Shown here one piece after another: positions 2,839 to 53,380 of a stretch of DNA of 64,000 nucleotides. Source of the stretch: Neoaquamicrobium microcysteis (lineage in GTDB: Bacteria > Pseudomonadota > Alphaproteobacteria > Rhizobiales > Rhizobiaceae); contig NZ_VSZS01000058.1 of NCBI RefSeq assembly GCF_008180155.1, positions 62,001 to 126,000 of the forward strand, in the 5' to 3' direction. Both the position numbers and the translations under genes were made by a program. Every line of letters begins with the position of its first letter. The stretch's first letter is position 1. The notes beneath the pieces are model-generated. The model saw only the letters and a list, made by a program, of their open reading frames with translations, was not told the origin of the DNA and ran no database searches.

Positions 2839-2913
2839 CATGGTCGACGCACACCGCCAAAAATTAACGGTTTTCAAGGGCCTGCACTCCGACGGCCGGT
2901 GGGACGAGTTGGT

Positions 2914-3519: not shown

Positions 3520-3765
3520 AAAAGGTTACGCAGCCGCCTCTCGCTCGGAGGGCGCTTTGCGACGGTGATGTGCGCCCCCAAGGGACGCCGTGGCGTCAGC
3601 GTGAAACGAGGAGTTGGTCTGCTCGCGTTCTTACACCGTGTGGCCGACGGCTTTTTCGAGCAACTTGAGCTGCCTCGCTACGCCGATTTGCGGCCGGCCC
3701 TGGATCTCGTGAGCCGAACAAGTCGCCGCTGCGCCCTAGCAGAAGGAAGCGGCGGAAGGGCCGGG

Positions 3766-3879
3766 TCAGACTTCCTGATCGGGCGTGCGGCGGCCGCGCG
3801 CGCGGGCGGCATAGCCGCGGTAGGTGAGGTATGCGGTCAGCAGCAGGGCGGCGATAGCGGCAATCAGCAAGAGGTCCAT
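3766..3879 (-). CDS. 37-residue predicted membrane microprotein
   Basis: This short minus-strand frame encodes 37 residues: a short hydrophobic segment rich in Leu, Ile and Ala at residues 3-18, then a basic stretch (RARGRR) and an acidic end. That is the layout of a single-pass small membrane protein with a cytoplasmic positive tail. The ATG is preceded by a good AGGAG at seven-base spacing, which supports real translation. It stands alone between the mla lipoprotein gene and a second small lipoprotein gene. I do not recognise a family. The case rests on the ribosome-binding site and the clean hydrophobic/basic split. Confidence 0.55.
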   Translation of the reverse strand: MDLLLIAAIAALLLTAYLTYRGYAARARGRRTPDQEV

Positions 3880-4008
3880 GGGTGTCTCCTTTCAGGAAGG
3901 AAACGCATCATGCACGCGAGTGTTGCACGGCAAGGCGCAATCGCCCGCTCCAACCTCGTTTCTATCTGGAAGATTGCCGGATACGCCAACGTATGGGCGA
4001 AAGGCCAT

Positions 4009-4029
4009 GGCGCAGCCTCAGGCTGCGCC
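4009..4029 (-). terminator. Hairpin with the stop codon in its loop
   Basis: A perfect 9-bp stem (GGCGCAGCC / GGCTGCGCC) encloses a 3-nt loop. On the minus strand the loop is exactly the TGA stop of the small lipoprotein gene. Only a weak T-run follows (CCTTTCG), so intrinsic termination is plausible but not certain. Confidence 0.45.
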
Positions 4030-4350
4030 GCAGTTTCGCCGCTTCATTGAATTGTTCATTGCGGTGATCTCGCCGATGGCGCGCGCCTTTGCCCGCGCCG
4101 CGTCGCTGCGGCCGTCCGGAATGACGAGATCGAAGCCTGCGGATAGCGATTCCTGCTGCGGCTCGCGCTCCACATCCGGAGACAGACCGTGCTGCGCCGC
4201 AAGCTGGTTGCGCCGCTGCGTGAGCTCGCCGCACGGCACGGTGTCGAACTGCATGGAGCCGACGACCTCTCGCTCGCGCTGGACGGCGACGGAGTTCTGA
4301 CAGCCGGCAAGCGCAAGGGCCGTCAATGCCAGAACGATAGCTTTGCGCAT
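4018..4350 (-). CDS. Small lipoprotein of unknown function
   Basis: The gene encodes 110 residues. The N terminus is a lipoprotein signal peptide with the lipobox Leu-Ala-Gly-Cys, the Cys falling at residue 17. The mature part is hydrophilic and contains two further Cys residues (around CGEL and RRNCG near the C terminus) that could form a disulfide in the periplasm. I recognise no domain. It lies on the same strand as, and downstream of, the giant coiled-coil gene, but that gene's terminator separates them, so it is probably transcribed on its own. The ATG is preceded by an AGGAGAAGGA sequence. Confidence 0.75.
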   Translation of the reverse strand: MRKAIVLALTALALAGCQNSVAVQREREVVGSMQFDTVPCGELTQRRNQLAAQHGLSPDVEREPQQESLSAGFDLVIPDGRSDAARAKARAIGEITAMNNSMKRRNCGAA

Positions 4351-38713: not shown

Positions 38714-39223
38714 CACGGAGAATATCTGAGCCGGGTGGAGGCCCGTGTGGCGGATTATCTCGTCGATCGGCGTGGGGACCGGACCCAATGCCTCGATCCC
38801 ATAGCGCGTTCGTCTTCACCCGGCGGCGTTGTCGTGGCCATGTCCGGCGGTTCCTCGAGGGGCGTCGCCGGCGAGGGTGGCCGCCCGACCAGCGGCGCGA
38901 TCGCTTCCAGCACATCCTGTGTTTCGGTGACCATCGTCGCACCGTCCTTGAGCAGGCCGTTGGTTCCGGCAGCACGCGGATCGAGAGGCGAGCCGGGTAC
39001 GGCGAAGACCAGGCGCCCGAGTTCCCCGGCAAGCCGCGCGGAGATCAGCGAGCCCGACCGGGTCGCCGCCTCCACCACGACGAGCCCGAGCCCCAGCCCG
39101 GCGACAAGGCGGTTCCTTCTGGGAAAATCCCGTGCGCGGGGCTCCCATCCGAACGGCATTTCGGAAAGGAGCACGCCCCTCTCTGCGATCTCCTCGCAAA
39201 GCCGGATGTTTTCGGGCGGGTAG
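38639..39223 (-). pseudogene. dprA: dprA 3' fragment, split from its 5' part and frameshifted
   Basis: This is the C-terminal half of the DNA processing protein DprA, which loads RecA on incoming single-stranded DNA. Read on the minus strand from 39223 it gives RPYPPENIRLCEEIAERGV, then the Rossmann-fold motif PRRNRLVAGL and the sequence EAATRSGSLISARLAGE. Near 38790-38812 one base is missing: the frame moves, reaching a stop at 38755, while the DprA winged-helix end (ALGPVPTPIDEIIRHTG to LAGRLERH) continues in another frame to 38639. The 5' part is 13.6 kb away at 52829-53380. Both the insertion and the frameshift inactivate it. Confidence 0.92.
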
Positions 39224-39236
39224 GGCCTGCCCTAAC
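39216..39236. other. Left attachment junction (attL-type)
   Basis: dprA sequence (GGGCGGGTAG on the plus strand) meets element sequence (CTGCCCTAAC) at a GGC core at 39224-39226. The same core, between the complementary halves, appears at 52833-52835. Swapping the halves restores an intact dprA frame, which identifies this as the recombination point to within about 3 bp. Confidence 0.82.
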
Positions 39237-39532
39237 ATTTATTATGCGGAATGCTGAAAGCACATAGCTGGCGTTGGCCGGAAATGGGCTGCTAACGCTC
39301 ATCCGTTGGCCCCGCGTCAAGCCCCATGATCTCGCGCGGTATAGGGTGGTTCGCGGGATGTCCTAGGGGGTGCCGGGGGGTATTCCTGTAAGGAGTATAT
39401 ACGAAATCCCGATACAGATTTTTCTCAAAACGGTCGCCGTAAAAGTCATTTGCCATGAAACCTCTCGCGCGCCGCTAGGCCATTTGACACCACGTCGCGG
39501 CACCGGCAATCATCGACCATCTGGGGGGATAA

Positions 39533-40660
39533 ATGTACCGAAGTGTATTGACGCATATCGATGGTTGCCGCCGCGTTGTCGTGCTCGCTTGTATTAGCGT
39601 CGCATTGACAATGTGCTTCGTCCAGAGAGGTATGGCTGAGGTGACTGTTGAACAGTGGCGCGGATACCAAGTCCTGCGCTTATCAGGCAGTATTTCGAAT
39701 GGAACTGCCGCGCGGTATCGCGAACTGGTCTCGACGGTTGACAGGTTGCCCCACGGGCTGCCCATTCTCTTGCTAGACAGCAGCGGCGGCTTGGTGGACG
39801 AGGCATTGGCATTGTCTGCCATCATGGCGGACTACCCTGCGCACACTGTCATTCCCGATGGGGCGAAATGCGCATCGGCGTGTGCGTCAATCGTGTTTGT
39901 CGCTGGTCAAAATCGAACAATCGAAGATGGCGGCGCGCTTGGGCAGCACTCCTGTTCGGTCGGAGGTGTTGCGGACCAAGCCTGTAACGAGGAGATCGCG
40001 GCCCATGCCATCAAGCATGGCGTTTCACACGGCAGCATAGCGGCCTTTGTGACCTACGTTGCACCCGACGATATCCTGTGGTTCTCGCGAGAAGATGCAG
40101 AAGGCTGGGGCCTTACACGGTACCCGGGAGAAGCGGAAAGCGGGTTCGAAAAGAGCGAGCCGAGGGTGATCCGAATGTTGACGGGTTCCTTTCCTGCCGC
40201 GCAGTCAGCTTGGCGCTTGGCCTTTAGGGAGGACGGCTATCAAGCGTTCTCGCGGACTGTCTCTGACGTTGAGCGAGAAATGGAGATCGGCCTGTTTTGT
40301 ATTGAGGCCTTGCCCGGACGCCTCTTTCTTTCAATGACAATTACCGGCCCAGCCGCCGCCGTTCAGGGCGCAGTTGCTGGTGTGGGAGTGTTCGCTGACC
40401 ACATGCGTTGGGACGATCACACACCCGCCATCTGGCAGATTGAGCCCATGCTGACAGAAGTCATTACAGAAGTTCCTCGCGAACGCATAATAGAGTTTCT
40501 GACGCGGATTGATGCTCTGACGTTTGGTATTGCCATGCGTAAACCATATGAGCCGATTATTGGAAGAACTACACTGTCAAGTAGTCGCGGCGTTTTAAAA
40601 TTTGCAGCGAATAACTGTGCAAGCGGCACATATGCCGAAGTGCCGTCACCATTGCGGTGA
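39533..40660 (+). CDS. Secreted ClpP/crotonase-fold protein (COG3904-like)
   Basis: This is a predicted periplasmic or secreted protein of 375 residues. A signal peptide of about 35 residues is followed by a ClpP-like domain at about 45-200. Family landmarks are the Gly-rich LDSSGG turn at 82-86, the candidate nucleophile Ser115 in CASACAS, and His139 in LGQHS, the same Ser...His layout as other COG3904 proteins. The rest (about 200-375) matches nothing I recognise. GGGGGG lies four bases before the ATG. It is the first gene of the element's cargo region and transcribed towards the secreted gene at 40894. Confidence 0.72.
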   Translation: MYRSVLTHIDGCRRVVVLACISVALTMCFVQRGMAEVTVEQWRGYQVLRLSGSISNGTAARYRELVSTVDRLPHGLPILLLDSSGGLVDEALALSAIMADYPAHTVIPDGAKCASACASIVFVAGQNRTIEDGGALGQHSCSVGGVADQACNEEIAAHAIKHGVSHGSIAAFVTYVAPDDILWFSREDAEGWGLTRYPGEAESGFEKSEPRVIRMLTGSFPAAQSAWRLAFREDGYQAFSRTVSDVEREMEIGLFCIEALPGRLFLSMTITGPAAAVQGAVAGVGVFADHMRWDDHTPAIWQIEPMLTEVITEVPRERIIEFLTRIDALTFGIAMRKPYEPIIGRTTLSSSRGVLKFAANNCASGTYAEVPSPLR

Positions 40661-40893
40661 TGCGGCCAATGACGCGAATGTATCGACCTAGGGGAATCAA
40701 ATGCCGACAAAAATTGACGATGACGTGGCGGAGGATTTTCGGGTGGAGAACTGAGACGCCTCCAACCAGCCGCAAAGTGTGAGAGGGGCGTTTGCTCCTC
40801 CCAGCATAGGCGATCGCTCACTAGAATGCGTTGAGGTCTGAGAGCGAATAACTGTAAACTGAGTTCTGTTCGCAGCTTCACTAGCGTGCGGGG

Positions 40894-41841
40894 TCAGGGG
40901 CGGATCGGGCGGCAGTATGCTCGAACTACCGATATACAATCGCCGCAGTAGCGCCCCCCGTCGGTGTCTTGGCCAAGTATGCCAGCAATATATTGACCTT
41001 CGGGGCAAGTAACTTTCGTGTTTCCCGCTGATATTATTTCGGTCTCGCCGCCGCCCCAGGCCCTGAGGCTGTTCGCCAGTTCCGCGTTCTTCTCTCCGAG
41101 ATCATTGACTGACGATTTTAGCGCCTGAACGTCCGCATTTATTGCATCAAGTACTGAACCCGAATAGCCGTTTAAAGTTATTGGCAACGGCCCTGATGCG
41201 AAGCGGAGGTTGACTGTTAAGTCGTCGCTGGAAATAACCTGAATGCCTTCGAATATCTGCACGCCTGCTTGGCGCTGACATGTAAGAGTTATCGGTGCAT
41301 TCTTGGTTACATTTGCCGGAAGCGTATCCGGCAGGCCTATACAATTCACGCTGCTGGAAGAGATAAGGTCAACTCCATGAAGAATTCCGCCGTTCTCAGA
41401 ATTGTTCGAGATACTGATGCTTAACGCATCCTTCTGTATTGGCTGATAATTAATATCCCAGCCCGCGCCCGCAGCCACCAGGCATTTCTCGATTGTTGGC
41501 AAAGCGCTCGCAAAAAACGATGCGCCCGTGTGGTAATCGCGCTGGGAAACTCCTATATCGCCCAAACTCTCATTGCAAAACGTCTGGCGATCTGTCTGGG
41601 AAATCCCGAGACCCAGATTGAACGCCTTGTAAGCAATGTCTAATGTAGTACTGGTGGCGTGAGAGGCCGCTTCACAGAAGGCGTAGTGTTGTAAGGATTT
41701 CAACTGTCTGTCAGTGATCGTTTCAAATTTCGGTGCAACTATCGCTTGCGCTAAGGAAATACACTGCGATCCGGTCACTTGGGCTAAAGCGATTTTTGTG
41801 GATACGAATATTATGGCAGCGAGCACGTAGAGCAGACGCAT
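40894..41841 (-). CDS. Secreted protein of unknown function
   Basis: The product has 315 residues from the ATG at 41841 (GGAGG upstream), with a signal peptide of about 21 residues ending Ala-Leu-Ala-Gln. The mature protein has about a dozen Cys residues, including a C-terminal cluster (TCPEGQ, YCGDCISVVRAYC), which suggests a disulfide-rich extracytoplasmic fold. A coiled-coil stretch (AINADVQALKSSVNDLGEKNAELANSL) lies shortly before the cluster. I recognise no family. Codon use is AT-richer than the host's, as for its cargo neighbours. Confidence 0.7.
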   Translation of the reverse strand: MRLLYVLAAIIFVSTKIALAQVTGSQCISLAQAIVAPKFETITDRQLKSLQHYAFCEAASHATSTTLDIAYKAFNLGLGISQTDRQTFCNESLGDIGVSQRDYHTGASFFASALPTIEKCLVAAGAGWDINYQPIQKDALSISISNNSENGGILHGVDLISSSSVNCIGLPDTLPANVTKNAPITLTCQRQAGVQIFEGIQVISSDDLTVNLRFASGPLPITLNGYSGSVLDAINADVQALKSSVNDLGEKNAELANSLRAWGGGETEIISAGNTKVTCPEGQYIAGILGQDTDGGRYCGDCISVVRAYCRPIRP

Positions 41842-42293
41842 TGTCGCCTCCAATGTGTGGAAAATACTGAATATTATCACGGCAAACTTGCTAGGTTGAA
41901 GCTATACGAATGGTGCTGACGCGTCATAATTCCGACTACATACAAGTACGGTAGGTGGTCATTTTAGTGACAGCTACAACTATCTCCACTATTTGAGTTA
42001 GTACTCCAGCACTCATTGTCGCGCATCTCCAAATTTCTCGTCCAATATGGCGCTTCCGGCAGCCTACCCTGCAAGGTTCCGTTTTTCTATTTCAGTTGGG
42101 GAATAGATCAACCGCGGCGCGAGGATGTTAGTTCCTCAATGATGCCACCTAGGATTCGTAACCGGCGTCACATAGGGGCACCGGCTTTACAATCGTGCAA
42201 CTAGATTCACTTGTGCATCGGTAGGGGACGGCTTACTCAGGAGGAACGCTTGCCTAGAATGGCAGAGTTTGGCCTCGAGCGGAGGGTAGAGCT
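41842..42293. other. AT-rich divergent intergenic region in the element
   Basis: This 452-bp gap separates the divergent secreted gene and HD-GHKL gene and should hold both promoters. I found no convincing gene in it on either strand and no clear repeat. GC content is visibly lower than in the host. Confidence 0.5.
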
Positions 42294-45200
42294 ATGGATT
42301 GGACCGAGACTAGTCTCTGGAAAGGCGCGAGAGATCAACTTCAGGAAAGGGAGATGGCGGCGGTGTCAGCTGCATTGCGGTCTGCCCAGCTCTCGCTGCG
42401 TAGCGCTTCCACTGCCCCCCTAGATTTTACGCTACACGATGAGGGCCATAGTTTTCGTGTGGCAGAGAATATATTCTCGTTAATTCCCAAAGATGTTGAT
42501 CTAAATGCCTATGAATTGGCATTGTTACTGCTGAGTTCATATATTCACGATATTGGCATGTCGCCATCCCAATATATTGTTAATTTGCACTATAATTACT
42601 TAATTACCGGTGCTAAGGAAAGTCTAACAAATCAGCAGATAAGAGATTTTCAGCAATGGATCGATGCAGAATATTGGGGAATTTCTGTCCCGATTGCGGT
42701 CGACAAATTATCTTCTTCAGACTTGAGGCTCGTTGACGAGATCATTTCTTATTACTCTCGACATAAGCATAATGACTGGAGTGAGGAGTGGGCTCGTTCG
42801 GTACTTGGCGATCTACCGGACTCTCTCTATGCAAATTGGGTGGACGATACTGTAACGCTATGTCGGAGTCACCACGAAGGATTGGCAGCCTTACGTTCGG
42901 ACAGATTCGATGCGAAGCTGGTTGGTTCGAGGGGGCAGGCCGTAAATTTGCGGTACTTAGCCGCTCTACTACGTATCGCAGATGTTGTGGAGTTTGATCC
43001 CGAGAGGACGCCTAGTGTAATATTGGAACGCCGTGACATTGCTGCAAACAGCCGAATATATTGGATGCGCGATCACCAAATAGCGTTTCATCTCAATGCC
43101 GAAGACAGCAGCATCTCTCTCTCCGCACGGACACCAAACGCTCCTTTACATCGAGCAGTGTTAGATATTGTTCAGTCGGTTAATCACGAGCTAGCTGTGT
43201 GCGCGGCGCTTGAGCACGAAGGCCTCTTCGTAAAGGGAAAAATCCCGAGCCAACAGCGGAGCCGATATCGCTGGGGTTGGCCGTCTCAAATTGGGGTCGA
43301 TATCGCGGAGAAGGATGGAAGCTTCGTCTACATCGAAGGTGCATTCCGACCGGACACGAAACGCGTTCTCAATCTGCTGTCTGGCGTCGCGTTGTATGGA
43401 AATCCTCTAGCCGCAGTCCGCGAGTTGCTGCAGAACGCTGTTGACGCCGTAAAGGAGCAAATCGCCTATGAAAGGCTCGGACAAGAAGATTGTGGGTGTA
43501 CAGATTTCTCAGAAATTTGGAGCCAAGTTCACCATATAAAGCTAAGTATTGAAGAGGAGGCAGGAGACATTTGGCTCAGGTGTTCCGACGATGGCATCGG
43601 AATGACCCGTGACATTATCGAAAATCACTTGCTGGTGAGCGGTTCCCCACCAAGGGTTGCAAGCAGGACACTCGATCGTGAGGCTGCCGAACGAGGGTTT
43701 TCTGTCGGCAGAACCGGGCAGTTCGGGGTTGGAGCCCTGAGCTACTTTATGATCGCTGATCGATTGGAGATAACGACCAGGCAAAGTGCCGAGGCTGGGG
43801 ACATCGACCATTCCGGATGGCGATTCATCTCCGAAGGGTTGGGCACCTTTGGTGAGTTGATGCCCGCTAGTCGTTCCACGAAGGGGACTGAGGTGCGTCT
43901 TCGGCTAAGGCGTGACGCATTTGATTCCGCCCAGTCAGTATTTACGCAAATATCAGAATATATTTCGAAAACAGTTTCATTCCTTCCCTGCAAACTGGAA
44001 TTCAAAGACAATATAGGAGAAGAGAGCCCACTCGTTCTTCAAGCGGGATGGGCATTTCCGGCGGCAAAATTCTCCAGCTCCTGCTTGCCCCCAGTTTACG
44101 CGTCTCGACCTCCAGCTGATGCCTCGTCAGCCCGCATCAAACAAGCAGAAATGGAATTCGAAGAACGTCAACGCATGAGAGGCGACGCGTTGACGAGGTT
44201 GAAGTGGCTTGGTCCTGAAGAGATAGTATTGGGAGACCCGAAGGTTCGGGTAAGAGTCTGGCTGCCGTACTTTGAGCTAGAGCATGGCAACTGCGCCGTT
44301 TACATGGATATCGATGGCAGCACTCTAGCGTGGCTTCCCAGCGGCGACCACTTTCTGAGAGCTGAGAAATGCCTTAAAGTTTCGTGGCGCGGCTTTGGAG
44401 TCCACGAGTCGCCTCTCGATATACACGACCGCGTTCTCGCGCAGGTCGATGTCAGCGATGGTGGCATAATCTCCGTGGCGCGGGAGAGCCTGACTTTTCG
44501 AACCGACGAGTGTAGCAAATTCATCGCTGAAGCCGCGCAAAGGTTGCGCGAGCGTTTTTTGCGCGAGAATGATACTTCTCCGTTTAAATTTGTCAGTTCT
44601 TCGATTCTGAAAATGAGTGGCAAGAGGAACGATGGACAGCTCCACTGGAGGGACAATAACAACCAATGGAGCGTCTTAGCGCCGCCTTTTGCGCAAGTGC
44701 TGAGGTTCGTTTACGATCGCGAACTGACAGGTGGAGAAACAACTAATGCGGGCCGGTCAGTTCAGAGACTATTCGAGCTAACAAGTGGGAGCACCCCAAC
44801 TCGAATTTCGGACAACATTAATGGGGGGCGTATTGTGTACACGCGCGACCATTCAAAATTCTCTATTCTTCAAACGGCCATTTTGTGGGATGAGCACCCC
44901 ACGGAGTTCACTTGGGGGCCTCGTAAATTTCCTCCCTCACTCGCACAGCTTGTCGCTTTGAGTGTGGATGGAAAAATCGAATTGAACGGTGATCATCCTT
45001 TCGCCGCCGGCGCTTCTCCCTATGGATATCCCAGCTTTGGCGCCCTAGACGAGCACTGTGCTGACGAGTTACTGCGATCGACAGTGATTAAGAACCTGTG
45101 CTGGTATTCCCTAGAGAGCTGGAGCAGTTTAGGAGAAAGGTATCCTATTCTTAAGAGACGGATAATGGATGCAATTGGTAACACTTTGGATAGTAGAATC

Positions 45201-45416
45201 GATGCGTGGGTTGTTTCAGGTGCGGATGAATTCGTCTACACACTAGATGATACTGGCATTCACTACAGAAAACAGCCTTTCAGCTTCGAATATTTAGAAG
45301 CTTATGACGGAAGAATATTCAAGATCGATGAGGAAGAAGATCATTGGATTATTATAAAAGATTCAAAGGCTGAAGGAAGTGTGAAAAAAGCTGTAACTGG
45401 AACAGTAACTTTCTGA
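42294..45416 (+). CDS. HD domain fused to Hsp90-like (GHKL) ATPase, candidate defence protein
   Basis: The product has 1,040 residues. An HD phosphohydrolase-like domain fills about 40-240: His48 and His52 (LHDEGHSFRV), His85-Asp86 (SYIHDIGM), His193-His194 (RSHHEG) and Asp230 (RIADVVEF). A GHKL/Hsp90-type ATPase follows: N-box Glu377...Asn381-Ala-Val-Asp384, G1 box DDGIGM at 432-437 and G2 box GQFGVG at 475-480, then a GTEVRLRLR strand. About 500 further residues match nothing I know. HD-CE plus Hsp90-like ATPase pairings are described in bacterial conflict systems; an anti-phage or stress role is inferred. GGAGGG precedes the ATG. Codon use is foreign and AT-rich. Confidence 0.85.
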   Translation: MDWTETSLWKGARDQLQEREMAAVSAALRSAQLSLRSASTAPLDFTLHDEGHSFRVAENIFSLIPKDVDLNAYELALLLLSSYIHDIGMSPSQYIVNLHYNYLITGAKESLTNQQIRDFQQWIDAEYWGISVPIAVDKLSSSDLRLVDEIISYYSRHKHNDWSEEWARSVLGDLPDSLYANWVDDTVTLCRSHHEGLAALRSDRFDAKLVGSRGQAVNLRYLAALLRIADVVEFDPERTPSVILERRDIAANSRIYWMRDHQIAFHLNAEDSSISLSARTPNAPLHRAVLDIVQSVNHELAVCAALEHEGLFVKGKIPSQQRSRYRWGWPSQIGVDIAEKDGSFVYIEGAFRPDTKRVLNLLSGVALYGNPLAAVRELLQNAVDAVKEQIAYERLGQEDCGCTDFSEIWSQVHHIKLSIEEEAGDIWLRCSDDGIGMTRDIIENHLLVSGSPPRVASRTLDREAAERGFSVGRTGQFGVGALSYFMIADRLEITTRQSAEAGDIDHSGWRFISEGLGTFGELMPASRSTKGTEVRLRLRRDAFDSAQSVFTQISEYISKTVSFLPCKLEFKDNIGEESPLVLQAGWAFPAAKFSSSCLPPVYASRPPADASSARIKQAEMEFEERQRMRGDALTRLKWLGPEEIVLGDPKVRVRVWLPYFELEHGNCAVYMDIDGSTLAWLPSGDHFLRAEKCLKVSWRGFGVHESPLDIHDRVLAQVDVSDGGIISVARESLTFRTDECSKFIAEAAQRLRERFLRENDTSPFKFVSSSILKMSGKRNDGQLHWRDNNNQWSVLAPPFAQVLRFVYDRELTGGETTNAGRSVQRLFELTSGSTPTRISDNINGGRIVYTRDHSKFSILQTAILWDEHPTEFTWGPRKFPPSLAQLVALSVDGKIELNGDHPFAAGASPYGYPSFGALDEHCADELLRSTVIKNLCWYSLESWSSLGERYPILKRRIMDAIGNTLDSRIDAWVVSGADEFVYTLDDTGIHYRKQPFSFEYLEAYDGRIFKIDEEEDHWIIIKDSKAEGSVKKAVTGTVTF

Positions 45417-45583
45417 TGGTTTCCGTATTTTGGAATGATCGCTTGGCCGATGTTGACGGCGATAAGAGGTGGACAACATCACTGAAGTCCATTTGGGGGT
45501 CGAAAAGGCTTAGGCCGTGAACCCCTAAGCGCTGGGTGATTGAGGCGCTGGAAAGCAATTAACCGGCGGTCTACAACCTGACT

Positions 45584-45865
45584 ATGCCGCTCGCCCGCAA
45601 AATAATTCTGCACGTTCCGGGTGAGACCTTGATGGCTTTGTTGAGCAATGTCTGAATGTCGGTGTGTCGCTCGTGACCGTGGTCGGACTGGGCTGCGCGA
45701 AGGTTGAAGACATTATCGACCAGATTGTCGTTGGTGACGGAAGCGACGAAGCACGCTTTCTATGCACAACTTCTCATGCAGGTGAGCCATTTGAAGGTGT
45801 GTTGAACATGGGCAAGGGCATGGGAGTTTGAGCGCGGTGATCCCGTCGAAGAGGTTCGGCTGTAA
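45584..45865 (+). pseudogene. Decayed small gene, three reading frames
   Basis: Three pieces in different frames together make one product of about 90 residues: MPLARKIILHVPGETLMALLSN (stop after about 23 codons), then VGVSLVTVVGLGCAKVEDIID to TTSHAGEPFEGVLNM, then RAWEFERGDPVEEVRL before a TAA at 45863-45865. At least two frameshifts separate them. The pieces read as a coherent alpha/beta protein, so a gene once existed here. I do not recognise the family. Confidence 0.6.
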
Positions 45866-45925
45866 GAGTCATTAACCGTCCCAATTTAGGCTTCCATGCC
45901 ACGCCATTTCTGATGCAGGCTCCGC

Positions 45926-46580
45926 ATGAGCCGATATGATCCGACTGACTCGGAATGGTGCGTCATCGAGCGGCTGTCGCTTAACAAGTCCCGAGGCGTG
46001 CCGCGTGTTGATGATCGGCGCGTGTTGAACGGCATCTTCTGGATGCTGCGATCGGGTGCGCGCTGGAGCGATCTGCCCGAGCGATACGGCCCACGCACCA
46101 CCTGCTACAATCGCTTCGTCCGATAGCGGAGAGCAGGTGTAGGGGACCGCCTCATGGAGGTTATCACCAAAGCCCATGATGGCAAAGGTGCAGATGATCG
46201 ATGCCTCAATTGTTCGCGTCCATCAGCAGGGCGCGACGGCAAAATAGGGACTGGGATCATTGTCTCGTTCGTTCCCGAGGCGGGCTGACGACAAAATCCA
46301 TGCTCTTTTCGACGCCCAAGGCAGACCGATCAAGCAGACGCTCACGGCGGGCCAGATGAGTGACATCGCCTCCGCACCGGACTTGATCAAAGATTGCCGG
46401 AGGGTGCCATGCTACTCGCTGACAAGACGTATGCTGCCACGCATTACGAACTCCTGTCACCGAGCGAAAGGCGTGGGCCAACATTCCGCCCAAGGCCAGC
46501 CGCAAGGATGCGATCTACGGTTAGATTTCTTTCCGCACATTGAGTTGGCGCGTAGGTATGTATCCATCGTGCTGATTTAG
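45926..46580 (+). pseudogene. Degraded IS5-family transposase
   Basis: The start MSRYDPTDSEWCVIERL with GVPRVDDRRVLNGIFWMLRSGARWSDLPERYGP is the N terminus of an IS5-type (IS427-like) transposase. A TAG replaces the Trp codon after NRFVR, a frameshift follows, KVQMIDASIVRVHQQGATAK appears in a second frame, and KIHALFDAQGRPIKQTLTAGQMSDIASAPDLIKD in a third. The 3' end is lost. It cannot encode a working enzyme, and I could not find its terminal inverted repeats. Confidence 0.88.
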
Positions 46581-46853
46581 GTGTCCAAAGCTCCTTACTC
46601 TACGTGTGGACGTAGGATTTGCTTGCGCCCTGCCCGTGGCACGGTTCGCTACGGGCAGGGTAGCCTCGTTTCCGTCAGGACACTTATGCTTCTAAGTCTT
46701 GCTCATTCGCAGCGCCAAGAGAACTTCAATCCCCTTTCAGCTATCGTGGTTAGTACGAAATACATCGATCTTATCTCCAGACTCGGTTCCTGCCTCGATT
46801 GCATGACTGACTGAGCTGCTATAGACGGCCGGGAATAAGCCTATCGGGCAAAG

Positions 46854-47279
46854 CTAATCGCATCTGTCGGAGATAGTCTGTACTGTTAAGGGACTGTCTA
46901 GGGTCGCTTTATCCTCCCCTGGAAGGCACCCCAACTCGGGAAAGAACTTCTCCAGTTCGGCATGGGTGACCATAGGTGCCCCTGCGGACAGGTCACGGAC
47001 CACGGGAGCCTTATGAGCGACAGTCGTCGTGCCCGTTGCAACACCGATTGTCAGTCGGGAATTGCGGCGCTCGATTGGGGCGAGCACTTTCCGCAACGTC
47101 TCAAAGTCATCCATCATGCGGGCAAGCTTCATCTCGCTGGCCTTGCGTTGATTGATAAGCAATGCGTTGTCGGTGGTAAGGCGGGTAACTTCCGCCTTCA
47201 ACTGGGCAATTTCGGTGCTGTTGTCGATTGCTTCAAGCTTGGCGAGGAGTTCCTCGCGGGTTTCTGGTTTCTTGGCCAT
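46854..47279 (-). CDS. Small coiled-coil protein of unknown function
   Basis: The gene encodes 141 residues: a charged, Leu-rich coiled-coil N-terminal half (about residues 5-65) and a polar second half. The ATG follows AGGAGG at good spacing, 14 bp from the stop of the preceding small gene, so it is co-transcribed with the minus-strand run. It is the last gene of that run. I recognise no domain; small coiled-coil proteins of this kind are common in phage and satellite genomes. Confidence 0.65.
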   Translation of the reverse strand: MAKKPETREELLAKLEAIDNSTEIAQLKAEVTRLTTDNALLINQRKASEMKLARMMDDFETLRKVLAPIERRNSRLTIGVATGTTTVAHKAPVVRDLSAGAPMVTHAELEKFFPELGCLPGEDKATLDSPLTVQTISDRCD

Positions 47280-47293
47280 GGTAGTGGCTCCTC

Positions 47294-47464
47294 CTATTCG
47301 TCGTCTTCTTCGTCGGTGATCGGCGTGATGCCGTTCGCGATGCGCAGGGAGTTTTCAAGGCGCTTGGCGATCCGAGTGATGTTGCGCGCGTCGTCGGCGT
47401 AGTAGGTGCCGACAGCGGCAAGGTCGGCTGCGGTTTCGCGCAACGTGGTAATGATGGCTTCCAT
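47294..47464 (-). CDS. 56-residue acidic protein
   Basis: This short frame codes for 56 residues beginning MEAIITTLRETAADLAAVGT and ending with an acidic DEEDDE. It is helical and soluble, with no known motif. It lies 14 bp before the next gene in the same direction and continues the tightly packed minus-strand run of the element. The spacing and the intact frame support it. Confidence 0.55.
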   Translation of the reverse strand: MEAIITTLRETAADLAAVGTYYADDARNITRIAKRLENSLRIANGITPITDEEDDE

Positions 47465-47497
47465 TAAGGATGCCCTTTCAGTCAGGGCGAATAGCGC

Positions 47498-47599
47498 CTA
47501 CGGCGCGATGAGCGGTAGAGACGCGAACACGTCGCTGAGGACCGCAATCATGAGGGTCGTGATTGTCACGATGTAGAGGGCAACGGCGATGTTGAGCAT
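47498..47599 (-). CDS. 33-residue predicted membrane peptide
   Basis: The frame encodes 33 residues that form one long hydrophobic segment (LNIAVALYIVTITTLMIAVL), with almost no soluble part. It lies 33 bp before the 56-residue gene and 11 bp after the 88-residue gene in the same direction. The ribosome-binding site is weak. Such single-helix peptides occur in phage and toxin modules; no function is assigned. Confidence 0.45.
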   Translation of the reverse strand: MLNIAVALYIVTITTLMIAVLSDVFASLPLIAP

Positions 47600-47610
47600 G
47601 ACGGTGCGCC

Positions 47611-47877
47611 TCAGTCGGCATCCGGCAGCGAGTGCCACCACATGTCGTATGCGTCCCCAAGCTTGTGGGGCTTGAGCTTGCCGGTGACGAAGTCGGCAAC
47701 GACACGGCGTGCAAACGGATCGTCCGTTCGGGAAGCGGCGTACATGAGCGATGCCCAGCGCTCGGACCCGATGGCTTCCGATGCGAATGGCTCGACCTCG
47801 TCAATGGCCGTCTGGGCCACGCTGGCGGCTGTAGCAGCGTCAAGGCCGGTAGGCCTCCACGATGCGCGCCACGGCAT
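47611..47877 (-). CDS. Small protein overlapping its upstream neighbour
   Basis: The gene encodes 88 residues, rich in Ala and acidic residues, ending DAYDMWWHSLPDAD. Its ATG lies 38 bp inside the 3' end of the upstream acidic-protein gene, so translation would be coupled. The first dozen residues are encoded in the overlap and may not be part of the real protein. No family recognised. Confidence 0.5.
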   Translation of the reverse strand: MPWRASWRPTGLDAATAASVAQTAIDEVEPFASEAIGSERWASLMYAASRTDDPFARRVVADFVTGKLKPHKLGDAYDMWWHSLPDAD

Positions 47878-48346
47878 CCTGAGGGTCCCCTGTGGCCACC
47901 AGCGTGGTCACACCGTCTTTAAAGTCTTCCGGGGTGAAGCAAGCCGCTATGTCGTCGGCAGTCTCAGACAGGGACGGCTCAACGTCCTGAATTTCTAGCT
48001 GGTCCTTGAGGGCCTCAAGGTCCTCGTCGCTGATTTCGTCAAGCTGGTCCTCGGCAGCATGGGCAGCGGGATCGGTCCCAGCCGGGACACCGCGAGGGTC
48101 CAAGGCTTGCATGGCCGCAGGGTGTTCCTGAGGGACTGCATTGCTCGGACCCAGCCCAAGGGACGCCGCCACGTCCTCAGCCACGTAGGTATTGAGGCCC
48201 GGAACAAAGACCATTCCAGCGGGGGCAGTGTCGGGCACCTCTGCCCGTGAATAGTCGGGGGCGCTGCTGCGCACCGTCCATCCTGAACTGGGGTCCATAG
48301 GGTTCGGGAGGCCCATATGGCCGTGATTGTCGTTGAAGTCGTGCAT
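47840..48346 (-). CDS. Acidic protein of unknown function in the phage-like run
   Basis: The product has 168 residues. The N-terminal third is Pro/Gly-rich and low in complexity; the C-terminal two-thirds is strongly acidic and helical (DQLDEISDEDLEALKDQLEIQDVEPSL). Such a disordered-then-acidic-helical layout occurs in phage scaffolding proteins, but the similarity is only in composition. It lies 15 bp downstream of the zinc-knuckle gene in the same direction. Confidence 0.6.
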   Translation of the reverse strand: MHDFNDNHGHMGLPNPMDPSSGWTVRSSAPDYSRAEVPDTAPAGMVFVPGLNTYVAEDVAASLGLGPSNAVPQEHPAAMQALDPRGVPAGTDPAAHAAEDQLDEISDEDLEALKDQLEIQDVEPSLSETADDIAACFTPEDFKDGVTTLVATGDPQDAVARIVEAYRP

Positions 48347-48361
48347 GTGGTGATCGTCTTT

Positions 48362-49135
48362 CTAAAGGAGCTTGGCGGCTCTGAGTGCCGCTTTGGCGTA
48401 GTCGAGAATGGTCATTTCCTGCCCGTCGCTGGTTGAGACAGGGGAAGACCAAAAGGATGCGCCGTAAATCTCACGGGCATGTTTGGTGAAGTCGCGCCCA
48501 AGGTGCCGGTGGGTTGCTCCTGAGACTTCCTTGCGCATGGTCGTGCTGCCCATGGTCTTGTGGAAGTCGCCCAGCAGCGCCCCGGCTCGGGTACAGAGAA
48601 ACCGCTCCCGGTTCTCCCAAAGGCCCCCAGCGGGACCCCCATAGTAAACCGCCATCCAGCCCATGAGCGCCAAGGCGTGGGTAACGGCCTCGGTATAGGT
48701 GCGCCGGTCCTTGTGCTGCCAATTCGCCAGAAGACCATGGGCCTTGGCGATCTGCGGCAGCTTGGGGTGAATGTCACCGGGGCCGAGCATGAAAGATGGC
48801 GGGAGGGTCTTGAGGGTCTCAAGGGCCTTGAGGTCCCCGGTGATCCGCTGGGCCTTAACGGGGTCTGTGGCGAGGTAGAGCGTGATTGCCTTTCTGAAGA
48901 TGGGAAGTTCGTTGCGAGCCGGGAGGCGCGCCACGGGGTCACCACGCTGGCTTGCGAGGTCGCGATGAGGTCCACAATAGCGGGAGACACCAGCGCAGTT
49001 CTTGAGACAGCGAGGACACTGGCATGGTTTGGTTTCGTTGATGATCTGGCGGCGTCTTAGCTGGGCCGCATTGTTGGGCGCTTGGGCTCCCACACGCCAA
49101 TCGCGTGGACGCCCCCGCGTGACAGGGGATGCCAT
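48362..49135 (-). CDS. Zinc-knuckle protein of unknown function
   Basis: The product has 257 residues from the ATG at 49135 (AAGGAACC upstream). A Cys/His cluster at about residues 40-65 (CQCPRCLKNC, then YCGPHRDL and QRGDP) resembles the small zinc motif that precedes HNH endonuclease or phage DNA-binding domains, where Cys-x2-Cys is followed by Cys-x2-His and a GDP motif. I see no HNH motif after it. The rest is mostly helical. It is part of the minus-strand run and might act in element DNA processing, which is unproven. Confidence 0.6.
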   Translation of the reverse strand: MASPVTRGRPRDWRVGAQAPNNAAQLRRRQIINETKPCQCPRCLKNCAGVSRYCGPHRDLASQRGDPVARLPARNELPIFRKAITLYLATDPVKAQRITGDLKALETLKTLPPSFMLGPGDIHPKLPQIAKAHGLLANWQHKDRRTYTEAVTHALALMGWMAVYYGGPAGGLWENRERFLCTRAGALLGDFHKTMGSTTMRKEVSGATHRHLGRDFTKHAREIYGASFWSSPVSTSDGQEMTILDYAKAALRAAKLL

Positions 49136-49628
49136 AGGGTTCCTTGGGGTGATGGTTGATGGTCGGACTAGCCGAGAAGGAAGGGAGTGGGCAGGAGGTG
49201 GAGTAACTCGCGCGCCCATTGACAGACTTGGCGTGAGACGGGCTTGCGCCCGTTCTTGGGAAAGCTTGAGGTGTCCAATGGGATCGCGAGGCCTAGTCCG
49301 CTCGGGAAGACCGAAACGGAGACAGTGATTGGAAAGACCAGAAGTGGAATACTCCTCTTTGTCTTCCCCAACTCGGTCTGTCGTGAAGTGCTGGTGCTGC
49401 TGTCGGGTATGTCATGACCGGGCACCGCCCGGCTCCAATCCATGAGGGTCCGACGATACCACCAGATAGGGACATAGATGGTTTGATAGCTAGGAAGTAC
49501 CCGCCCAGCGGGACCTCATGAGCCCTTTATATATAGGCGGATGGTTGACACGAAACCCAGCGTTTGCACGGGTTGCAGATTGGTTTTCCGTTCTGGCCGA
49601 CACGACGCAAGGTTGACACTACCCAGCT
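49136..49628. other. 493-bp gap in the element
   Basis: No gene with a credible start or ribosome-binding site is visible. It contains CTATATATA at 49528-49536 (in the sequence TTTATATATAGGC), a possible promoter region for the downstream minus-strand genes at 49135. Frames on both strands are broken or low in complexity. Confidence 0.45.
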
Positions 49629-50153
49629 TCAAGCTGCCTTGGCGACAGCCTCAAAAGCCACGCCGTCCTCCCATGAGCCAATGACGGGCCAGTCAGTCAG
49701 CCGTGGCGGGCGGCTCCTCAGGTGCTTCGAAACAGCTTCGGCACTGATACCAACCCGCTGGCCGATGGCGCGCATCGACAGCCCAACATCATCGTGCAGC
49801 TTCTCGATTTCCGTCTGTGGCTCGTTGGTTGCCTCAAGGTTGCGAGCAAGGAGAACCATCCCTGAGGGAAGAATAACGTCGTACCTTTTGGTTGGCGCGC
49901 CCCTGCCAGTGCGACGATGGATCACCTCTCCCTGACACAAGCGTCGGGCGTCCTGAGTAATCCCATAGCGGCCTCTGGCGTCCCTCTGGACGATTCCGAG
50001 ACAGGCAAGCCGTCTCAGGACATCGGCGGTGGTCGTGTTAAACGTCACCGCAAGCGCAGCGAATGGCAGGTAGCCGGTGTGCCATGCGCCGCTGGCATCG
50101 CGGATTTCACCTAGTGTCGTGGACACGCATTGGACGATTTGGCCTTCGCTCAT
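49629..50153 (-). CDS. Putative DNA-binding regulator with two HTH regions
   Basis: The product has 174 residues. One helical region near 25-70 (LPFAALAVTFNTTTADVLRRLACLGIVQRDARGRYGIT) reads as a winged helix, and a second near 122-145 (LSMRAIGQRVGISAEAVSKHL) as a classical helix-turn-helix. It could regulate the integrase or act as a replication or excision factor; neither can be decided. The ATG at 50153 follows AGGAG, which makes the start firm. Confidence 0.65.
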   Translation of the reverse strand: MSEGQIVQCVSTTLGEIRDASGAWHTGYLPFAALAVTFNTTTADVLRRLACLGIVQRDARGRYGITQDARRLCQGEVIHRRTGRGAPTKRYDVILPSGMVLLARNLEATNEPQTEIEKLHDDVGLSMRAIGQRVGISAEAVSKHLRSRPPRLTDWPVIGSWEDGVAFEAVAKAA

Positions 50154-50294
50154 AGTTCTCCTTGCGATTGATGGCTGCTCTTTGAGTCGTGGGGGGCACC
50201 TGAGGGCGCTGGGCTTCTCGGCGGTATAGGCGCAGCGGGAAACGCCTGACGCGCTCCCATGACTCCCTGAGGTCCCCTGTGGGCATCCTCTGGT

Positions 50295-50822
50295 TTACTG
50301 GTGCACCGACTGCTTCTGCCGCTTCGATGGTGTCGGGTTGCCGTGCCGGAAGTCCTCAAGTTCCCCGGGGGAGCATGAAGACGCAAAACGTGGCGGTATC
50401 AGTGACCATGTATCCGCTGGGCGGCGCTGCTCCTGGGCGATGATTTCGCGGATGGCGTCATAGGAGAGATAGAGGGTGTCGCCGGGTGCCCAGTCGAGAA
50501 GCCGGAAGGCCCATAGCGTGTCCACGATTTCAAGGATGACGGGCACGGTGACGTTGTGCGCGCCTCTCACTTCATACTGGTTTGACAGTGAGACGCCTTC
50601 CGGTTCCATGGCTCCCGCGTGGGCTAGCCTTCGGGCAGCACGGGACTTGCGAATATGGTCAGGGGCATTGCGGCGCTTCTCTGCCTCGCGCCAGCGCTCG
50701 GATGAAAGGTGCGGCGGGCAGAAGGACGGGAATGTGGAAGCGAGGGACTTCCCCCCGGTTGCGGGCTGCTTCATTGCATCGGTGGTCGCGACGATCTCGG
50801 GACCGCGCTTGTAGTTCGCCAT
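50295..50822 (-). CDS. Hypothetical protein between integrase and HTH gene
   Basis: The product has 175 residues from the ATG at 50822. It is soluble, with a basic N-terminal half and a middle part ILEIVDTLWAFRLLDWAPGDTLYLSYDAIREII that looks folded. The ribosome-binding site is weak (GAAG), and the open frame extends further upstream without a better start. It is in the same direction as the integrase. I recognise no family; small DNA-binding accessory proteins occur at this position in many integrative elements. Confidence 0.5.
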   Translation of the reverse strand: MANYKRGPEIVATTDAMKQPATGGKSLASTFPSFCPPHLSSERWREAEKRRNAPDHIRKSRAARRLAHAGAMEPEGVSLSNQYEVRGAHNVTVPVILEIVDTLWAFRLLDWAPGDTLYLSYDAIREIIAQEQRRPADTWSLIPPRFASSCSPGELEDFRHGNPTPSKRQKQSVHQ

Positions 50823-51266
50823 ATCGGCTTCGCTATATGTAGTGTTGATCGGTGTCGAATGCACTAGATGTGCTATCGGGCTGCGGCGGCTACAATTCGG
50901 ACCACCAAGAGAAAAACAGGGAGCGCACCAGAGGACGCACGACGACGTCTTGCTAGTCTCTGTATGAGGGGGAAACGGAAATCCGACCGGCTTGACTGGC
51001 ACACTTGATGGCCCCTCAGGGACCCTAAAAGGCCCCATGAGCAGCGTTCACCATCTCATGGTGGTCCGGTTTCTGAATGAGAATGATTACCTGTAGCGGC
51101 GCCCAGTCAGTACAGTGACCGATCGGGAGGTGTGGTTTCGGTGTGCTGTATGGGGGGGAAATCCCTGCGCTACCAGAAAACCCCTGATAACGCAGTGACT
51201 TAGATGAGTTTCATGGCAGGGCAGACGTGTCACGCAGCAACCGAGCCCGTGGGAGCCTCAAGGAGG
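50823..51266. other. 444-bp gap in the element with a short inverted repeat
   Basis: No convincing gene is visible. A perfect 6-bp inverted repeat CACCAT-CTC-ATGGTG occurs at 51048-51062, and a hairpin AGCCTC-AAG-GAGGCT overlaps the integrase stop at 51254-51268. These could be operator or 3'-end structures. It should contain the promoter for the gene at 50822. Confidence 0.4.
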
Positions 51267-52772
51267 CTAGAGAGCCCCTGAGGTATCAAATACCATCTGG
51301 TGGGTGTAGCCGGTCCTCAAGGTCACCACGGCGCGGCGCAGGTCCTTGCTATCGCTTTCCAGTTCGATCCGCTCCACCACGTTTGCAATGAGACGCTTGG
51401 CGTCCTCACGGTCATCCTTGGCCATCCGCTGCATTGCCGCTATGTCGTCAGCGAAGTCAGCGGTGTGGGTTGCGGCCTGTTGGAAGCGCGCCGCGCTCTC
51501 GCGAAGCTGGGTGAGGGCATCGCGCTTTGTCTTGATGTTGTCAGAAATCGCCCTGGCATTGTCGAGAAGGATTGAGCGGGTCGCGGCATCGGCTGCTTCG
51601 GCCACACCAGCTAGGACGTTTCTATGGCGGTCCTCAAGGGCCCGTATTTCAGCCTCAAGTTCCTCTGTCCTGCTGTCTTCTAAGCCGGTATCTCCGCTCG
51701 GTATAGGAAGGGCGAGAAAGCCCATGCGTTCAAGGAAATCAGCTTCGAACTGGTCATACTTCCAATTGAGCGATTTGCAGTCAGTGCGCTTAAGGGAGCG
51801 GCCTTCGCAGACCAGATAGCGCCACGTCTTGCCGCGAACGGTACTAGAGGTGACGACCATAGCCGAACCACAATGAGCGCAGCGCAAGAGACGTGGGAAG
51901 AGATTGGTGGTGTTTCCAGCTTGCGGGTTCTGGTGGCGAACACGTTGGCGGCTCTGGATAGCGAGCCATTCGGTTTCCGTGATGAGGGGAGGGAAGTAGC
52001 TGCGCACTTCCTCCTTCTTGAGCACCAAAGAGCCATAAGCTGCCTTGGACTTGAGAACGTCCTGCACCATACTCTTTCCCCAAGTGCCCCCTCGGGAAGA
52101 CGGGATGCCATTTTCGTTTAGATGATTTGTGATGGCCCATTGCCCGTGGCCGTCTGTAGCAAGCTGAAAGATCAGGCGGGCATCATTGGCGCGGGCATTG
52201 AGTTCCTGCGTCGTCTGGTCGATCCAAAAGGGGACCTTTGAAAGCTTCAAACGCTCGCCTTGCATGGCGCGCTTCACGCGGCCATTCCATGATTCTCCGA
52301 TGCGCTTGGAAAGCTTGTCGCTGTACTCGTGAGCGGCTTGCATCGCCATGAGCGACATGAGGAGATTGGCGAAATTGTCGTCATAGCCTTCAGCGGTATG
52401 CACCCGGCCATCCGTGAGGGTGACCAACGTTAAGCCCGTATCGAGCAAGTCGAGGAAGTAGCGAACGGCGCGTGTTGGTTTCACGCGGGTGATACGGTCA
52501 ATGTTCTCGACGATGAGGACATAGTCGTTAGCGATCTTGCCAGCCTTAACGTCCGCGACGAACTGCCCAAGGCTTGCCTCTAGGTTCGCGCCTTTGAATG
52601 CTGACACGCCATCATCAACAAGTTGCTTGTCCAGCGTGAGGCCATAGGTCGTGCAGAAGCTTTCGGCGTTCTCCGACTGCCTACGAAGGCTGTCGCCCTC
52701 TGCCTGTTTCCCTGAGGACCAACGGGCGTAAGAGATGGCGGTGCGGCCTTTGAGGTCTCTGGCTTGCAACAT
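51267..52772 (-). CDS. Large serine recombinase (integrase)
   Basis: This is the site-specific integrase of the element, of 501 residues. The N-terminal resolvase domain shows the catalytic Ser19/Ser20 in YARWSSGKQAEGDSLRRQ and the Arg in DRITRVKP. A Recombinase domain follows at about 150-280, then a zinc ribbon with two Cys pairs (CAHCGSAMV and VCEGRSLKRTDC), a coiled coil and a C-terminal tail. It starts 60 bp inside the right end of the element, and the ATG has TTGGAG upstream. The layout is that of phage and island large serine integrases, not of small resolvases. Confidence 0.93.
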   Translation of the reverse strand: MLQARDLKGRTAISYARWSSGKQAEGDSLRRQSENAESFCTTYGLTLDKQLVDDGVSAFKGANLEASLGQFVADVKAGKIANDYVLIVENIDRITRVKPTRAVRYFLDLLDTGLTLVTLTDGRVHTAEGYDDNFANLLMSLMAMQAAHEYSDKLSKRIGESWNGRVKRAMQGERLKLSKVPFWIDQTTQELNARANDARLIFQLATDGHGQWAITNHLNENGIPSSRGGTWGKSMVQDVLKSKAAYGSLVLKKEEVRSYFPPLITETEWLAIQSRQRVRHQNPQAGNTTNLFPRLLRCAHCGSAMVVTSSTVRGKTWRYLVCEGRSLKRTDCKSLNWKYDQFEADFLERMGFLALPIPSGDTGLEDSRTEELEAEIRALEDRHRNVLAGVAEAADAATRSILLDNARAISDNIKTKRDALTQLRESAARFQQAATHTADFADDIAAMQRMAKDDREDAKRLIANVVERIELESDSKDLRRAVVTLRTGYTHQMVFDTSGAL

Positions 52773-52822
52773 TGTCGGGCTCCAACTCGGTGTGTTAGAA
52801 CCGTCCTAATCGTTCTGTAGAG

Positions 52823-52845
52823 TGCACGTCAAGGCTTGTCCAGTC
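52823..52845. other. Right attachment junction (attR-type)
   Basis: Element sequence (GCACGTCAA on the plus strand) meets dprA sequence (TTGTCCAGTC) at the GGC core at 52833-52835. Joined to the left junction it rebuilds an uninterrupted dprA (Gly-Leu-Asp-Lys-Pro-Tyr-Pro on the minus strand). An in-frame TGA lies just inside the element, so the truncated dprA ends at 52829. Confidence 0.82.
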
Positions 52846-53380
52846 CGCCGGCCAGAACTGCGACCGTGCCAGTATCCAGGCTGCCGCCGTGAGCGGCCGC
52901 ATCGATGCCGCGCGCAAGCCCCGATACGATCGCGTAGCCTTCGCGCCCGAGCTCGGATGCGAGGAGCCGAGCCATTCGTACGCCGGCCACCGAGGCGTTA
53001 CGCGCGCCCACGATGGAAACGGCCGGCAGTTGGAAGGTTTCTGAGCGGCCCTTTATAGCCACCAGCGGCGGCGGTAAATCCATGCGGCGCAGCATCGGCG
53101 GATAGTCCGGCTCGCCTATCGCGACGAAGCGCGAACCATGCCGCCGCGCGGCGTCCATTTCGGCTTCGGCCTGGCTCTCGGTGGCCACTCGCATCGGTCG
53201 CGACGCACCGCCGCGCATCGCCAGTTCCGGAAGGGCGGCGATGGCGGCTTCCGCCGAGCCGAAACGGTTGATGAGTTCGCGAAACGAAGCAGGGCCGACA
53301 TTGTCGGTGCGGATCAGACGAAGCCAGTGAAGACGCTGCCGGTCGGTGAGCCTCGGGCCTCCCGCCGGCGGGCCATTCAT
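52829..53380 (-). pseudogene. dprA: dprA 5' fragment, truncated by the element
   Basis: This is the N-terminal 183 codons of DprA. The sequence shows the N-terminal helix-hairpin-helix/SAM-like region (LRLIRTDNVGPASFRELINRFGSAEAAIAALPEL) and the start of the Rossmann-like domain with SIVGARNASVAG and SGLARGIDAAAHGGSL. The frame breaks at the conserved GGLD-Lys-Pro, where the element begins, and a TGA follows at once. Its ATG overlaps the plsY stop (ATGA), the normal operon arrangement. Without the C-terminal half the RecA- and DNA-binding surfaces are incomplete, so no function is expected. Confidence 0.94.

Follow-up and report, generated by a model that had tools for sequence, protein, structure and literature searches.

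An HD-CE domain fused to an Hsp90-type ATPase module on a mobile element of Neoaquamicrobium microcysteis, a candidate single-protein immune effector

We analyzed a 64,000-nucleotide stretch of the genome of Neoaquamicrobium microcysteis (assembly GCF_008180155.1, contig NZ_VSZS01000058.1, positions 62,001 to 126,000), hereafter the window. An intact open reading frame (ORF) at 42294..45416 on the forward strand, with an ATG start and no internal stop, encodes a protein of 1,040 amino acids (aa) in which an HD-CE domain is joined to an Hsp90-type ATPase module. The gene is carried on an integrated element that splits dprA. With modest confidence, we lean toward the explanation that the product is a single-protein, two-enzyme effector of the immune type, carried as mobile-element cargo, in which ATP gates an HD phosphohydrolase.

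The N-terminal domain (aa 44-300, 42423..43193) is a clear member of the Pfam family HD-CE (PF24391, which has a companion in PF24401, iHD-CE), with a score of 149 bits (cut-off 27) over model positions 3-261 of 263. The AlphaFold2 model of aa 1-345 has a mean predicted local distance difference test score (pLDDT) of 85.4 and a predicted template modeling score of 0.86. The GHKL ATPase domain of the Hsp90 type (aa 350-573, 43341..44012) passes the Pfam cut-off for HATPase_c_3 at aa 373-508 (26 bits, cut-off 25) and aligns with ten HtpG-like proteins at 99.6% in hhalign; iHD-CE and HATPase_c match the protein below cut-off. In structure comparison, aa 352-766 superpose on the N-terminal and middle domains of Hsp90. 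The probable middle domain (aa 574-766, 44013..44591) is defined by this superposition, which extends to residue 766 through a part with low local pLDDT and no profile match. The C-terminal region (aa 767-1040, 44592..45413) has no assigned domain, evolves fast and is not recognizably Hsp90; its pLDDT is low, and the last 270 residues are poorly modeled. A preliminary description, made from the sequence alone, had noticed the fusion of an HD and a GHKL domain, which profile comparison with the HD-CE and Hsp90 families bears out. The same description left about 500 C-terminal residues unassigned; with the superposition up to residue 766, part of them now has a probable assignment.

Such an architecture could belong to a variant Hsp90-family chaperone with an accessory HD domain, acting in stress or in the maturation of element proteins. 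The protein shares with HtpG, Hsp90 and TRAP1 the key Glu, Asn and Asp of the ATPase site and probably the middle domain. It differs from them in its N-terminal HD domain and C-terminal region, however, and its partial matches to the NCBIfam equivalog models fall far below the cut-offs (HtpG, 74.9 bits against 371; Hsp90, 83.2 against 455). The gene is also absent from the seven congeners searched, and HD-CE genes are rare: proteins of any make-up above cut-off occur in 4 of 289 genomes of the class, 16 of 398 of the phylum and 11 of 397 of the order, in samples that overlap and include the window genome. We therefore regard a chaperone role as very unlikely.

Relatives were gathered from the HD-CE genome searches, from scanned viral contigs, from plasmid records and from a genome-wide scan that used an alignment of four sequences and in which 80 of 133 loci were kept. 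The alignment was needed, as no relative was confirmed when genome contigs were scanned with the single window sequence. Both domains were called within one ORF by two custom profiles, one for the HD domain and one for the ATPase. From 85 such ORFs we excluded eleven duplicates (L001, L016-L019, L033-L037, L046), L049 (the L048 gene, by length and scores) and a split Aliarcobacter gene (L061). This left 72 distinct loci, some shortened by contig ends or frame breaks, which represent ten named phyla. Eight two-domain loci found later (L185-L191, L193) and the HD-only loci, including L057-L059, stand outside this count. Of the 80 loci kept in the genome-wide scan, both domains are present in 58, and 22 have the ATPase without a match to the HD profile. 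When viral contigs were scanned again with the window subfamily, all new loci (L194-L196) were ones with an ATPase part only.

Within the order, where 397 genomes were searched, we found a full-length relative, L190/L197, identical to the window protein at 563 of 1,040 positions (54%). This protein and the 72 loci with both domains in one ORF place the fusion beyond chance. Judged from these sequences, HD-CE and Hsp90-module fusions are a real, broad family. The window protein belongs to it as a divergent member, one of three found in its subfamily, with L197 and L064 of Magnetospirillum. L064, 37% identical over residues 44-672, forms a long-branch pair with the window protein in a quick tree that carries long-branch warnings (Shimodaira-Hasegawa-like approximate likelihood ratio test, 99). 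Identity to L197 is 67.7% in the HD domain, 64.1% in the linker and 71.5% in the ATPase domain, and falls to 37.8% in the middle domain and 36.9% in the C-terminal region. Codon-position differences between the two genes are 0.376/0.270/0.668, the pattern expected for a protein under constraint; nonsynonymous divergence is 0.40, and synonymous divergence is not estimable.

Conservation was counted over the 72 loci plus the window protein (73 sequences, gaps excluded). The HD motifs of the window protein are T46-L-H48-D49-E-G-H52, H85-D86, H159, S192-H193-H194 and A229-D230, and the putative metal ligands H52, H85, D86, H159, H193 and D230 are all present and conserved. H52 is found in 69 of 69 sequences, H85 and D86 in 70 of 70, and H159 in 71 of 72, whereas H193 and D230 are invariant (73/73 each). 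The further conserved residues H48 (69/69), R227, R238 and E299 (73/73 each) belong to the HD-CE pattern, and R156 occurs in 72 of 72. The preliminary description had given a complete set consisting of His52, His85-Asp86, His194 and Asp230. The motif is real, but the set omitted His48 and His159, and the invariant histidine of the fourth motif is His193, not His194, a position that is His in 22 and Trp in 35 of the 73 sequences. The ATP site was read correctly, with Asn381, Asp384, DDGIGM and GQFGVG all present. Its motifs are R376-E377, Q380-N381, D384, D432-D433-G434-I-G436-M437 and G475-Q-F-G478-V-G480; E377, N381 and D384 are conserved in 73 of 73 sequences, D432 in 72 of 73, and G475, G478 and G480 in 71 of 71. 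Asp433, proposed earlier as a mutant target, is one residue off, because the conserved DxGxG aspartate is Asp432. In Hsp90, the Glu, Asn and Asp conserved here serve as general base and in nucleotide binding, and the domain should hydrolyze ATP. A candidate catalytic arginine of the middle domain, R730, was near-invariant in one alignment and fell in another column in a second, and was dropped.

The ligand order of the family HD site is H-HD-H-H-D, and conserved H48 precedes H52 by four residues. Set against a consensus of 8 HD-GYP domains, the ligand order and H48 resemble phosphodiesterase-type HD sites, and sites of this kind hold two metals. Of the 50 fold matches listed for the HD part, 46 are cyclic-nucleotide phosphodiesterases; SAMHD1, Cas3 and PgpH are not among these 50, by which nothing is excluded. 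Based on the ligand order and the fold matches, the HD domain is probably a phosphodiesterase, which fits better than a dNTPase (dNTP, deoxynucleoside triphosphate). Aligned to sequences in the PDB, the domain gave weak matches only (best YedJ, E 0.009; the class 1 phosphodiesterase PDEB1, E 0.78). PDEase_I matched weakly in 3 of 96 genomes, and Ppx/GppA, intended as a comparison family, had no match in the 20 genomes searched.

These features bear on the nucleotide-degrading HD effector proposed at first. If the protein acted as dGTPase- and SAMHD1-type effectors do, it would deplete dNTPs while the ATPase senses infection. The intact HD motif would allow this, and the HD dNTPases CloA (of Clover) and SpdGTPase are reported as proven anti-phage effectors (PMC12265719). 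In CloA, the catalytic dyad H126/E129 stands beside the HD motif H117/D118 (PMC12265719). However, none of the 70 family sequences with the HD histidine aligned has a His/acid pair at HD+9/HD+12, which all 12 dGTPase controls have, and hhalign of HD-CE against dGTPases reaches 0.5%. Depletion in the manner of dGTPases or CloA is thus unlikely, indeed the least probable of the explanations weighed here. The metal-ligand positions of the proposed effector are intact; its chemistry is better taken as that of a probable phosphodiesterase than as dNTP degradation.

Alternatively, the protein could regulate or turn over a nucleotide second messenger such as cyclic di-GMP (c-di-GMP), for the host or for the element, with no role in defense. 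The HD-GYP-like ligand order and the phosphodiesterase-like folds agree with this, as does a gene of the diguanylate cyclase type (CZB-GGDEF, 8937-9809) that lies 12 bp upstream of the fusion in L064. Against it, the signature HHExxDGxGYP is absent from the window protein, which has SHHEGLAALRS instead, and hhalign against HD-GYP gives 3.9%, so that HD-CE is near neither HD-GYP nor the dGTPases. GGDEF-like genes occur at only 4 of the 72 loci; the three other than L064 are more than 3 kb from the fusion, and none adjoins the window gene or the L197 fusion. A GGDEF partnership was accordingly rejected as a general feature. We consider a purely signaling role unlikely, if the least so of the alternatives.

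Carriage on a mobile element, proposed in the preliminary description, is well founded. The gene dprA, which serves natural transformation, is split at LDKP/YPPEN within window positions 38755-53380. On the reverse strand, its 5' part (52832..53380) breaks off after ...LAGGLDKP, and its 3' part (38755..39222) resumes at YPPENIRL.... The intervening element of about 13.6 kb (39223..52831; ends set at the dprA break, crossover approximate) carries the fusion gene and a large serine recombinase (51267..52772, reverse strand) with Pfam Recombinase and Zn_ribbon_recom domains and a match to the integrase family phrog_95. An unbroken junction (LDKPYPPEN or LDRPYPPEN) is present in 4 of 7 congeners; the other three gave no match in the motif search. 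Across the eight genomes of the genus searched, only the window genome has a full-length match to the fusion, and two others match its ATPase part only. The GC content of the fusion gene is 49.8%, compared with 63.8% for topA. Beside the fusion gene, 39533-40660 encodes a 375-aa protein with weak matches to ClpP-like and head-maturation proteases.

Several relatives have settings of a defense or mobile type. (i) L055, from the same phylum, lies in a P2-type prophage in the order gpA, fusion, portal, terminase; the interval between gpA and portal is described as a defense hotspot of P2-like phages of E. coli (PMC9122126). (ii) L047, L048/L049 (one locus entered twice) and L050 are on IMG/VR contigs that also carry genes for head, tail, lysis or replication functions. 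(iii) On plasmids, the fusion is found 1 kb from a TIR gene (Zymomonas), close to an AAA ATPase, a UvrD helicase and an integrase (Pantoea), between recombinase genes with AbiEii nearby (Hymenobacter), alongside an Abi family gene (Eubacterium) and, as a split gene, near a Shedu nuclease (Aliarcobacter); a Nonomuraea plasmid record without annotation carries a further relative. (iv) L197 is flanked on one side by genes of phage type for terminase, prohead protease and capsid; on the opposite side, a GmrSD restriction gene lies at a distance of about 5 kb. (v) In L052, a phage-type integrase gene adjoins the fusion. A weakly matching Lysinibacillus plasmid (L062) was dropped. In the phage contig L047, a second GHKL-like protein (2121-4097, phrog_6203) accompanies the fusion; phrog_6203 weakly matches the window ATPase part.

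Neighboring genes also recur. In L089, L090, L097, L114 and L119, a gene for an SMC-like ATPase (827-843 aa) precedes the fusion by 8-25 bp and forms with it a recurrent two-gene unit; L113 has a divergent sixth partner of this kind. Related small proteins (161-190 aa) are encoded close to the fusion in four loci: on its strand and no more than 127 bp away in L063, L085 and L086, and on the opposite strand, 334 bp upstream, in L050. The L085 protein matches DUF2157 below cut-off. In two sets of family neighbors, 132 proteins matched 315 PADLOC models and 106 proteins matched 215, those listed including GajA, AbiLi, Old, PtuA and HEC in the first set and mad3, LmuB, PDC-S06, AriA and AbiLi in the second. 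The 95 neighbor ORFs of the 22 ATPase-only loci, used as controls, matched 84 models, and those listed were mostly methyltransferase and RecD-like. A defense setting is favored by this difference, though the comparison is coarse, with many PADLOC models per family and ORFs taken by a longest-ORF rule; some of the signal presumably comes from the recurrent SMC-like partner. For the family, 238 of 245 ORFs were scanned; the seven excluded were four from L063 and three lying within or across broken fusion genes, and ORFs above 900 aa were unused. The controls are, by their titles, mainly Verrucomicrobiota and Chloroflexota, and one of them, L101, whose ATPase reaches a score typical of the fusion family (163 bits), is possibly a broken family member.

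The same settings raise the question of whether the protein instead serves its carrier, by superinfection exclusion, anti-restriction or addiction. Relatives in prophages, on phage contigs and on plasmids with recombinase genes are compatible with this. In addition, GHKL proteins of the T4 rIIA type are termed poorly understood phage counter-defense systems (PMC7824862), and the viral fold matches include an RIIA-like protein. On the other hand, most of the 72 loci had no match to the phage and integrase probes, which were few (each single-gene probe found 1 to 3 of the 72 loci and 0 of the 22 controls), and no antitoxin-like partner was recognized in the window. We hold service to the element to be distinctly unlikely. 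The earlier interpretation is partly supported: the contexts of relatives favor defense cargo as a candidate role, and an effector chemistry of the dNTP type is unlikely.

In the explanation that we prefer, the ATP-gated immune-type effector, the HD-CE domain, with six ligands and probably two metals, would hydrolyze a phosphodiester, the likeliest substrate being a nucleotide signal or a nucleic acid. The Hsp90-type ATPase and middle domain would gate the HD domain through ATP-driven closing and opening of a clamp, and the fast-evolving middle and C-terminal parts may bind a trigger, such as a phage component, or a partner. The trigger would release HD activity and phage growth would stop, with the cell surviving or not. 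The ATPase sensor suggested at first is, in this scheme, an Hsp90-type ATPase with its key residues in place and a presumed sensing role. More tentatively, the family might be a widespread type of immunity provided by one protein, with an Hsp90-type ATP clamp as the sensor and gate of an HD phosphodiesterase that is not a dNTPase. The window subfamily would then have a changing C-terminal recognition region, and members elsewhere alternative partners (an SMC-like ATPase, a small protein or a diguanylate cyclase).

The names HD-CE and iHD-CE stem from surveys of conflict systems. Searches of a literature collection with few subscription papers showed, among the papers listed, no paper or experimental report on an HD-CE/Hsp90 fusion, and did not bear out the earlier statement that fusions of HD with Hsp90-like ATPases are known from conflict systems. 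No PADLOC 2.0 system model matches most of the window protein. Its sole PADLOC match is RT_UG24 (23 bits, HD part), a reverse transcriptase of the DRT class UG24 whose profile positions 699-898 are those matched, whereas the window protein has no reverse transcriptase domain detectable with Pfam. PHROGs gave only a weak match of the ATPase part to a family of unknown function. A comparable design is seen in VcSduA, an anti-phage Shedu protein with an N-terminal GHKL domain, for which its authors hypothesize ATPase control of the effector (PMC12137116). Both proteins combine a GHKL ATPase with an effector domain; the effector of VcSduA is a PD-(D/E)xK nuclease (DUF4263), whereas the window protein has an HD domain and no Pfam match to DUF4263 at E up to 1. 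Clover CloA and SpdGTPase are likewise HD-superfamily effectors against phage (PMC12265719), but control there is by dTTP and p3diT, in place of which the window family has an ATPase module, and the family lacks the dNTPase dyad.

If the proposal is correct, bacteria of at least ten named phyla have put a chaperone-type ATPase to use as the trigger of an immune phosphodiesterase, and Hsp90-fold machines gain a further role in phage conflict beside the GHKL-Shedu proteins. Well-defined point mutations (H85/D86, H193, E377 and D432) are available as a test, and the relative in the P2 prophage (L055) should make the system testable in standard laboratory E. coli.

HD-CE domains also occur apart from the Hsp90 N-terminal and middle module to which that of the window is fused. 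In L059 (9524-12616), HD-CE is part of a protein with WD40 repeats. Stand-alone HD-CE genes are found in L057 (8744-12726), L058 (530-4421) and L192, each followed by a gene that by eye encodes a P-loop ATPase-like protein (about 620 aa in L057 and L058, partial in L192). L057 and L058 have a third gene as well, and a gene resembling DNA methyltransferases, again by eye, lies close to HD-CE in both. The stand-alone HD-CE genes of L057, L058 and L192 and their neighbors are a candidate for a separate defense module.

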